Assembly: GCF_024697385.1 (NCBI RefSeq)
Contig: NZ_JAILFV010000006.1
Location: 1-51,337, forward strand
DNA length: 51,337 nt
Reading direction: 5' to 3'
Origin: Anaerovibrio sp.
GTDB taxonomy: Bacteria; Bacillota; Negativicutes; Selenomonadales; Selenomonadaceae
Shown: piece by piece, positions 1-49,415 of the stretch
Numbering within the stretch: the first letter of the stretch is position 1
Layout: each line of letters opens with the position of its first letter
Translations under genes and position numbers: made by a program
Notes under the pieces: model-generated
What the model saw: the letters and a program-made list of their open reading frames with translations, nothing else
What the model was told of the DNA's origin: nothing
The model's database searches: none

Positions 1-142
1 ACGCCATTGTTCAAATTTTTCTTCTTTAGAAGAAAAATCTTCCAATTAGCGTTTCAACGAGCTGGGAGATATGCTCGCCAGCTGTTGTAGTTTGTTTTCC
101 CCCACCTAAAGAGGAAGGGGGACATCTTAAAGCTCGTTATAT
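1..142 (-). repeat. Copy R1 of a dispersed structured repeat (short form, cut by window edge)
   Basis: Read on the minus strand, it begins TATAACGAGC near 142 and ends ACAATGGCGT at base 1, so the last bases lie outside the window. It holds three hairpins: a C-run/G-run stem (99-103 with 117-121, with an inner CCT/AGG tip), a stem AGCTGG/CCAGCT (60-65 with 78-83) around a 12-nt loop, and a T-rich stem (TTTTTCTTC with GAAGAAAAA). It lacks the 24-nt module found in R5 and R6. The gene at 195 starts about 50 bp beyond its end. Family membership is seen directly by alignment with the other copies; function is unknown. Confidence 0.85.
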
Positions 143-194
143 TATTTCAATTTATCACTTCCACTGAAAGGGTCGAATTTTATTTAGAAAGCGA

Positions 195-7043: not shown

Positions 7044-7182
7044 AAATAACGGGGTGCTGATTTTAACAGGCGGTGAGCATATCTCTAGTCTCGTGCGACG
7101 CAAGGCCAGTGGTCTTGGGGAAAATACTAATTTGGAAGATTTTTCTTCTGGGGGAAGAAAAATTTGAACAATTGCGTTATAA
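7044..7182 (+). repeat. Copy R3 of the dispersed structured repeat (lacks first hairpin)
   Basis: It matches the family from TTTAACAGGCGG to the end GCGTTATAA at 7174-7182. The conserved loop TGAGCATATCTC and the optional 24-nt module (TGCGACGCAAGG...) are present, but the first C/G-rich hairpin is missing or replaced. The H1 stem is partly decayed (AGGCGG against TAGTCT), while the T-rich hairpin is intact with a new loop (TTTTTCTTC and GAAGAAAAA). It ends 36 bp before the DUF4321 start. Confidence 0.8.
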
Positions 7183-15152: not shown

Positions 15153-15310
15153 CATAACGAGATATAGCAGCCTCCTTCTCCCTGCAGGTCGGCAAACAAA
15201 TCATGACGGGGAGCATTCCCCATGTTTCATGGGCTTAAAAAGCTGGTAGTCTTGTTCAGATGCCAATGGGAAATTTTCTTCCGGAGAAGAAGGACCTGAA
15301 CAATGGGGGC
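15153..15310 (+). repeat. Copy R2 of the dispersed structured repeat (strongly diverged)
   Basis: It begins CATAACGAGAT and ends CTGAACAATGGGGG, matching the family's ends. The interior has drifted, but the key shapes persist: an H1-like hairpin GGGG-AGCATT-CCCC at the right place and the T-rich hairpin TTCTTC/GAGAAGAA. It starts right at the minE stop codon and precedes the operon terminator, so it is probably transcribed as the minE 3' UTR. The call rests on order and structure more than on identity. Confidence 0.6.
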
Positions 15311-15411: not shown

Positions 15412-15577
15412 GTATTAGTTATTATGAGGTTAAAGCTGTAGCTTGTCTTTGCAGGCTGGGCAAAAAGACCATAACAGGCAGGGGGCATATGCACCCTTTT
15501 ATGGTATGCAAAGCCGGCTCCCCCGGTAAAACTTCATCATAATTGTACTGGAATACAAATCCTTGGAGGGTCTGATT

Positions 15578-21811: not shown

Positions 21812-21963
21812 ATGGCGTTATAACGAGCTTAAGATGTCCCCTTCCTCTTAAGGTGGGGGGAATCAATCTTTAACAGCTGGTGAGCATATCTCCCAGCTCG
21901 TTGAAGCGCTAACTGGAAGATTTTTCTTTTTTCAAAAGAAAAATGTGAACAATGGCGTTATAA
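21812..21963 (+). repeat. Copy R4 of the dispersed structured repeat (short form)
   Basis: The unit runs from GTTATAA (21817-21823) to GTTATAA (21957-21963), 140 bp, and both ends carry ATGGCGTTATAA, as if a second unit had once lain upstream. First hairpin: CCCC 21838-21841 with the G-run at 21855. Second: AGCTGG 21875-21880 with CCAGCT 21893-21898, loop TGAGCATATCTC. The third, T-rich stem shows paired changes (TTTTTCTTTT with AAAAGAAAAA). The 24-nt module is absent. No promoter for tsf is obvious between it and the gene; a GGAC/GTCC stem follows at 21964-21984. Confidence 0.88.
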
Positions 21964-47922: not shown

Positions 47923-48095
47923 GTTATAACTCGGTGTAAGATTTCCTCTTCCTCTATAGGTGGGGGGGACAATCTTTAACAGGTGGTGAGTATATCTCCC
48001 GCCTCGCGCGACGCAAGGCGAGTGCCCTCGTTGAAACGCTAATAGGAGTATTTTTCTTAATAAATGAAGAAAAAATTTGAACAATGGCGTTATAA
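47923..48095 (+). repeat. Copy R5 of the dispersed structured repeat (long form, tandem with R6)
   Basis: The unit runs from GTTATAAC (47923) to CGTTATAA (48088-48095), 166 bp to the next unit. Second hairpin: AGGTGG 47981-47986 with CCGCCT 47999-48004, loop TGAGTATATCTC. The optional 24-nt module (CGCGACGCAAGG...) follows directly. The T-rich stem is present but weaker. The minus ORFs over this region are products of the repeat, not genes. Confidence 0.9.
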
Positions 48096-48259
48096 CGAGG
48101 CAAAAGATGTCCTCTTCCTCTATAGGTGGGGGGACAATCTTTAACAGGTGGTGCGTATATCTCCCACCTCGTGCGACGCAAGGCGAGTGCCCTCGTTGAA
48201 ACGCTAATAGGAGTATTTTTCTTCATAAATAAAGAAAAATTTGAACAATGGCGTTATAA
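48089..48259 (+). repeat. Copy R6 of the dispersed structured repeat (long form)
   Basis: It is joined head to tail with R5 through the perfect palindrome CGTTATAACG. The hairpin AGGTGG 48146-48151 with CCACCT 48164-48169 is a perfect pair, loop TGCGTATATCTC. The 24-nt module is present. It ends GCGTTATAAG, 10 bp before the recA -35 box. It is very similar to R5, suggesting a recent duplication. Confidence 0.9.
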
Positions 48260-48297: not shown

Positions 48298-48371
48298 ACA
48301 TAACGGTGATATTAGATTACGGAGTAAAATCAGAATAAAAATAATTTCTCATAGAAGGGAGTTTATTGTTA

Positions 48372-49415
48372 ATGGAGAAAGAAGAAGCGTTAAAAAGTGC
48401 CCTTAAGCAGATAGAAAAGGATTACGGTAAGGGGGCCATTATGCGCCTTGGCGATGCTGCCAACGATATGAATGTGGAGGTTATTCCTACAGGTATATTG
48501 CCTCTGGATATTGCCTTGGGCGTTGGTGGTATTCCCCGTGGACGAATCATAGAGATTTATGGCCCGGAATCCTCTGGTAAGACTACAGTTACCCTGCATA
48601 TGATAGCTGAGGCCCAGAAGAACGGCGGTATTGCAGCATTTATAGATGCTGAGCATGCCCTGGACCCGGTATATGCCAAGAAATTAGGCGTGGATATTGA
48701 TAACCTGCTTATTTCACAGCCGGATACAGGGGAGCAGGCCCTGGAAATTGCTGAGGCACTGGTAAGAAGTGGTGCCATTGATATTATTGTCGTTGATTCC
48801 GTTGCAGCTCTCGTACCAAAGGCTGAAATCGAGGGTGAGATGGGTGATGCCCATGTGGGTCTTCTGGCCCGCCTTATGAGTCAGGCCATGCGCAAGCTCA
48901 CAGGTGTTATCAGTAAGTCCCGTACAACAGCCATATTCATCAACCAGATTCGTGAGAAGGTCGGCGTGATGTATGGCAATCCTGAAACCACCACCGGTGG
49001 CCGGGCTCTGAAATTCTATGCCTCTGTCCGTCTGGATGTGCGCAAATACGATACCGTGAAGCAGGGGACCAATATTCTCGGTAACAGGACCCGTGTCAAG
49101 GTGGTCAAGAACAAGGTAGCACCACCATTCAAGACTGCTGAGTTCGATATTATGTATGGTGAAGGTGTATCCCGTGAAAGCAGCCTCATCGATATAGCCT
49201 CTGATCTGGAGATACTCCAGAAGAGCGGGTCATGGTATTCCTATAATGGCAGTCGTCTTGGACAGGGCAAGGATACCATCAAGGAAATTCTCCGCAAGCA
49301 GCCTGAGCTTTGCGCAGAAATTGAAGGCAAGGTTCATGAGATGCTCAAGGACGATGAGGTCATGCAGCGCCTGACATCACCATCCAAGAAGACAAAGGCC
49401 GGCAGTGATGACTGA
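48372..49415 (+). CDS. recA: Recombinase RecA
   Basis: A 347-348-aa ATPase for homologous recombination and SOS induction. Walker [12 protein letters not shown], Walker B region [15 protein letters not shown], and the L2-type loop [22 protein letters not shown] are present. I start it at ATG 48372 ([13 protein letters not shown]); a TTG at 48366 is also possible, given AAGGGAG at 48355-48361. recX overlaps its end. Confidence 0.97.

Follow-up and report, generated by a model that had tools for sequence, protein, structure and literature searches.

Transposases of the IS200/IS605 group work with subterminal hairpins and a tetranucleotide in the flank, on the lagging-strand template (PMC6006769), and REPINs are thought to move in trans by means of a Y1 enzyme (PMC3116915, PMC6006769). 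Regarding the PATEs, the palindrome-associated transposable elements of Haloquadratum, their authors were unable to reconcile mobility with tnpA genes that were all broken (PMC3119063). The repeat family described here, which we followed from a stretch of 51,337 nucleotides of an Anaerovibrio draft genome (the window), is of this already known, PATE/REPIN-like kind; what is new is its architecture, its host group and the missing Y1 enzyme.

An iterated profile search (nhmmer) of the window and other pieces of its genome recovered all six intergenic copies that a sequence-only reading had proposed, together with a seventh, partial piece (Table 1); the profile hits for the six span 1-141 (-), 7052-7181, 15154-15308, 21819-21962, 47925-48094 and 48091-48258. 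Copies 4, 5 and 6 are intact, as is copy 1 save for the cut at the contig start; copy 2 is without its left end, and copy 3 is decayed, with a right hairpin of 17.9 bits against 62-78 bits for the others. The repeat had also been called structured, and the folds of the window copies are indeed not due to chance, none of 200 shuffles folding as well as the copies at 21816-21963 (z = -4.9) or 48085-48259 (z = -3.8).

Table 1. Copies of the repeat in the window, with the gene next to copies 5 and 6.
Feature	Position	Strand	Description	Basis
Copy 1	1..144	-	Long form, 25-nt module absent; contig start truncates the 3' end (last bases of GCGTTATAA)	nhmmer 141..1, 3.1e-41; right-hairpin model 1-55 (-), 72.1 bits, truncated at 3' end
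Copy 2	7052..7182	+	Left end missing; complete right hairpin at 7121-7182	nhmmer 1.1e-20, from model position 41; right hairpin 61.9 bits
Copy 3	15154..15308	+	Decayed	nhmmer 7.3e-16; right hairpin 17.9 bits
Partial left half (seventh piece)	15417..15532	+		nhmmer 3.1e-6, model positions 4-122
Copy 4	21824..21963	+	Long form, 3' of TATAA (21819-21823), ends GCGTTATAA	nhmmer 2.7e-42; right hairpin 21903-21963, 74.8 bits; DNA fold z = -4.86
Copy 5	47930..48095	+	Long form with optional extra stem module, 3' of TATAA (47925-47929)	nhmmer 4.6e-39; right hairpin 48033-48095, 71.4 bits; absent at orthologous site in related genomes examined
Copy 6	48096..48259	+	In tandem with copy 5; left flank is the terminal TATAA of copy 5 (48091-48095)	nhmmer 1.2e-39; right hairpin 48198-48259, 78.2 bits; RNA fold z = -3.83
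recA	48366..49415	+	Downstream of copies 5 and 6; neighbour, outside the element	ORF

The family in Selenomonadaceae is much larger than six copies. BLAST with a single copy as the query found it in at least 46 places of the window's genome and a covariance-model search in at least 36, mostly on other contigs, and by our own count the two lists combined give at least about 75 places. Among the matches listed for a covariance model of the right hairpin (R1) are 63 of the 151 Selenomonadaceae genomes, representing 15 of the 30 genera; within Anaerovibrio, the repeat is present in ten of the 16 genomes and missing from the other six. At least 93 stretches of named genomes, all Anaerovibrio or Selenomonas, contain the exact 20-mer TTTGAACAATGGCGTTATAA. 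Copies measure about 80-175 bp and encode no protein. One plasmid copy was found, on Selenomonas pSRC1, whereas 50,697 phage records held no repeat and viral contigs no exact right end. Rfam gave no match above the gathering score in the whole window or in a lax search over copies 5 and 6, and the open literature (subscription papers and ISfinder being outside its scope) yielded no published description, the motif itself included, in agreement with the earlier reading, which could not match the repeat to a named family. As grounds for refutation that reading had offered a genome-wide search yielding six copies only, or an exact match to a known element; the search instead gave dozens of copies in many genera and no match, and the reading was not refuted. 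Many contigs of the window's genome start within a copy (e.g. C36, C38, C77, C89, C94, C109, C112 and C187, and the window itself at 1-144), the right hairpin at such starts ending at about 137-141, and the repeat is therefore probably the cause of much assembly breakage in these genomes.

Ten comparisons of filled and empty orthologous sites establish that the family is mobile and has inserted recently. The copy stands directly after ATAA, and the empty site holds a single such motif. Nine pairs come from the genomes taken to be A. lipolyticus DSM 3074 (G001) and LB2005 (G002), which are about 94.5% identical around recA, and the tenth from RM50 (G005). Four pairs (L284, L287, L289 and L294) are base-perfect, and the flanks of the others have diverged by a few bases; at L289, with slashes marking the junctions, the filled site reads ...GCATAATAA/CGAG...GCGTTATAA/CGTCAATT and the empty one ...GCATAATAACGTCAATT. 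The tandem copies 5 and 6 are also absent from the orthologous place in the related genomes examined, in which recA is conserved and, in the closest comparisons, a few tens of bases separate the two flanking matches. A burst genome from another genus (G057) carries about 30 nearly identical copies. The description of the family as structured, intergenic, mobile and transposase-free is supported.

Two further observations concern individual sites. DSM 3074 (G001:C28:73597-73748) and RM50 (G005:C1:199315-199467) carry a copy at the same site, at which LB2005 is cleanly empty even though RM50 is the more distant genome, and these copies resemble each other much more closely than the locus does overall (81%); the pattern is explained either by a precise loss together with gene conversion or by more than one insertion at the same ATAA. 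At four loci of A. lipolyticus (L259, L260, L261 and L264), a duplicated gene family, which by eye we take to encode a Nif11-like leader peptide, is accompanied each time by a short-form copy with similar flanks; gene and repeat were probably copied as one unit.

The two-hairpin fold is conserved and covaries across genera. Its core of about 80-145 bp consists of ATAA, the hairpin SL1, a G(A) linker, the hairpin SL2 (AACGC...GCGTT) and ATAA, and in the minimal unit of 78-93 bp the linker is 1-2 bases and SL2 contains an inner stem. The sequence of SL1 is nearly free provided that its arms pair (GAG/CTC, GACATGT/ACATGTC and GGGCG/CGCCC were seen), and SL2 shows compensatory changes (AACGC:GCGTT, AAGGC:GCCTT, AACAC:GTGTT); in the long form, which is common to several genera, SL1 encloses two inner hairpins with conserved loops. 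In the right hairpin, 94.5% of cells were paired and 14 were double-changed, against 2.9 after shuffling (0/500), while the full long form from several genera gave 36 double-changed cells against 11.4 +/- 2.4 shuffled (0/500) and at most 12 in slid-alignment controls. An optional module of about 25 nt between the main hairpins was present in four of 20 fresh G057 loci and is the main difference between the orthologous Anaerovibrio sites L263 (G002:C15) and L266 (G001:C31). It contains GCGAAGC, an unusually stable DNA mini-hairpin.

Among variants of the fold, nearly the same 25-nt module occurs in two genera, and it is present or absent among otherwise equal copies (L380-L399, G057). The long form at L045 (556-854), L110 and L121 (one Anaerovibrio MAG) has on its hairpin-b side an additional and larger structured insert of about 110 nt. 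Two forms of the left arm recur across genera, AACGAGG and AACTCGG, and in the latter CGAG has become its reverse complement CTCG with the partner arm still CCTCGTT, resulting in a 2x2 mismatch.

Regarding the ends, junction profiles of 123 copies read (T85/A12)-A96-T98-A100-A100 before the initial C on the left and GGCGT-T98-A99-T97-A96-A96 on the right; the left flank (T/A)ATAA directly precedes CGAG or CTCGG, and on the right the element ends in GGCGTTATAA. Neither these profiles nor alignments across genera contain terminal inverted repeats beyond the palindromic ATAA region, and the two inner ends differ. The earlier assignment of MITE-type inverted repeats, TTATAACG/CGTTATAA, consequently has to be given up: the two junctions have in common only ATAA, part of the target or cleavage site, and the apparent flanking TTATAACG arises because TTATAA is palindromic and the adjoining C and G are the feet of two different hairpins. 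The filled/empty pairs likewise point to insertion 3' of ATAA more than to a duplication of the transposon type. Canonical bacterial MITEs, ERIC and Correia elements resemble the repeat in size, intergenic location and lack of coding capacity, but are defined by the terminal inverted repeats that it does not have outside its palindromic target. Since the base at -5 is variable on the left and fixed on the right, and since some copies (L035, L250) have GTAA on the left and ATAA on the right, the right ATAA looks element-borne rather than a copied target, and the junction sequences appear to favour insertion 3' of a pre-existing ATAA over target duplication. A promoter at the terminal TATAAT was considered and rejected, as only half of the copies have T after TATAA and no -35 element was seen at the right spacing.

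Judged by its sequence features, the repeat would share most of the working definition of PATEs (PMC3119063): it is free of a transposase and of terminal inverted repeats, has palindromes close to both ends (the covarying SL1 and SL2), differs between strains in filled and empty sites, and occurs in core-deleted short versions. It may also resemble PATEs in having no clear target duplication: ATAA flanks filled sites on both sides and is single in empty ones, but deviating left flanks have no counterpart on the right. The repeat is set apart by its abutting two-hairpin architecture, cross-genus covariation and optional module, by the archaeal hosts of PATEs, and by the match of PATE palindromes to IS605 ends, whereas its own hairpin resemblance is weak, the inner CCCCCACCTCTTTAGGTGGGGG hairpin resembling the left-end hairpins of Anaerovibrio IS605 elements at E of about 0.004-0.05. 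Similar to REPIN/REP sequences with their RAYT (TnpA-REP) enzymes, it is a short intergenic hairpin element of high copy number that forms tandem clusters (PMC3116915, PMC6006769), but at 80-175 bp it contains no inverted REP pair and no GTAG/GGAG foot, no GTAG-like guide tetranucleotide being seen at the hairpin foot in sequences and alignments, and several of the richest genomes have no RAYT/Y1 gene. Like IS200/IS605 elements it has subterminal hairpins, a short fixed target 3' of which it inserts, and a preference for the lagging-strand template, but it carries neither tnpA nor tnpB, and the IS605 elements seen in the genus end mostly in TCAA, the repeat in ATAA.

This preference was measured by GC skew, which places 95 of 122 copies in leading-strand orientation (p = 4.6e-10). 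In a joint fit the skew effect (0.90 +/- 0.32) survives beside that of the neighbouring-gene strand (0.83 +/- 0.41), and of 25 copies between neighbouring genes of opposite direction, 18 are still leading-strand. Only three of 137 copies lie within an ORF. The orientation bias is partly tied to gene strand, and selection on RNA could contribute to it.

Considering the lack of terminal inverted repeats together with the end hairpins, the fixed short target 5' of the element and the replication-strand bias, a single-stranded route is the best inference, and we give a probability of about one half to a non-autonomous, PATE/REPIN-like mobile element that is moved as folded single-stranded DNA by a trans-acting HUH-type enzyme. 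We infer both the intermediate and the enzyme class from this combination of features. An IS200/IS605- or RAYT-like enzyme would recognize the hairpins in trans and cut at ATAA sites, as proposed for PATEs and REPINs, and the folded element would then be inserted directly 3' of (T/A)ATAA, preferentially in leading-strand orientation, i.e. on the lagging-strand template.

Against this reading, the Y1 transposase domain (PF01797) is absent or fragmentary in several of the richest genomes: no match was obtained in G002, G005, G006, G012, G013, G041, G046 and G077, many of them repeat-rich, and only a fragment in the burst genome, while the E. coli control matched. TnpB (PF07282) was found mainly in Anaerovibrio genomes without the repeat, and reverse transcriptase had no match in six repeat-rich genomes (the window's own, G000, and G002, G006, G008, G012 and G015); Y1 transposase, TnpB and reverse transcriptase were all rejected as candidates, as their presence is not associated with repeat-rich genomes. 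Left-end and right-end searches of five genomes revealed no autonomous copy with a gene between the ends, left ends being paired with right ends at element length, and 32 right-end loci at which the left end was missed or divergent proved to be full, short, decayed or truncated copies, most inspected with up to 4 kb upstream. The genes recurring beside copies were only common ones (chemotaxis receptors, ABC transporters) and the one duplicated unit, and none suggests a candidate mobilizer. Most of these genomes are drafts, in which a multi-copy transposase could hide in assembly gaps.

A less probable but tenable variant is that an enzyme of a class not yet recognized, distinct from Y1 HUH, TnpB-linked and resident DDE enzymes, acts on the folded single strands and cuts at ATAA. 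If true, the structured substrate would be all that is visible of a new transposition system spread over half of the genera of the family.

Somewhat more doubtful is insertion of a circular form by a tyrosine recombinase, either host XerC/D-like or a prophage or plasmid integrase, through strand exchange in a short common core, TTATAA; as for integron attC sites, the substrates might be folded single strands. A circle junction GCG-TTATAA-CGAG that recombines reciprocally with a target ATAA would yield the observed junctions, and a Xer-like recombinase gene lies near the copy on pSRC1; on the other hand, the base at -5 on the left is not tied to the core and no recombinase gene recurs beside copies. 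The integron attC/cassette reading itself was rejected, as the ends differ from the attC consensus and the one candidate enzyme examined, that of pSRC1, is Xer-like rather than IntI, with 70 bits against the integron-integrase cut-off of 265 bits.

That the repeat is an unusual MITE, mobilized by a DDE transposase and duplicating a fixed 4-bp target (ATAA), is unlikely. At filled sites ATAA does occur left and right of the repeat, and empty sites have it once; however, left flanks that deviate from ATAA are not mirrored at the right end, the two ends form no inverted repeat, and neither hairpins nor an orientation bias would be expected.

To an equally low degree we credit a mainly functional RNA element, such as a 3'-UTR or regulatory structure, that is selected for its RNA fold and has spread secondarily. 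Its fold covaries, and copies are frequently found behind a stop codon and oriented with it, at a median distance of 30 bp, but they occupy non-orthologous sites that differ between near relatives and lie beside unrelated genes. Moreover, RNA selection should favour G-U over A-C exchanges, and in the helices the two are about equal by a fixed-geometry count (18 vs 15 cells, 10 vs 10 events), a weak indication that DNA and not RNA is under selection. We discarded an asymmetry of wobble pairs between the strands, as the automatic fold that had given 92 G-T pairs was biased and the fixed-geometry count showed none. A route guided by RNA or running through reverse transcription (omega-RNA/TnpB-like, or a retroelement based on structured RNA) is highly improbable, for although the RNA-like fold is conserved and ATAA is placed where a TnpB adjacent motif would be, TnpB is absent from most repeat-rich Anaerovibrio genomes, reverse transcriptase is without a match as described above, and Rfam gave none.

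The Selenomonadaceae of the rumen and gut gain a large, recently active family of mobile elements, none having been found described there. Its recent activity set against the missing Y1 transposase restates the puzzle of the archaeal PATEs in a form that can be tested with isolates in culture (A. lipolyticus DSM 3074 and LB2005, Anaerovibrio sp. RM50), and since the junctions are precise, the fold is conserved and burst genomes are known, the missing enzyme can be hunted. As a minor observation, the right hairpin also occurs in tandem with a period of about 70 bp, at G077:C93:8466/8536/8606, G017:C7:3722/3792 and G017:C2:93078/93149.
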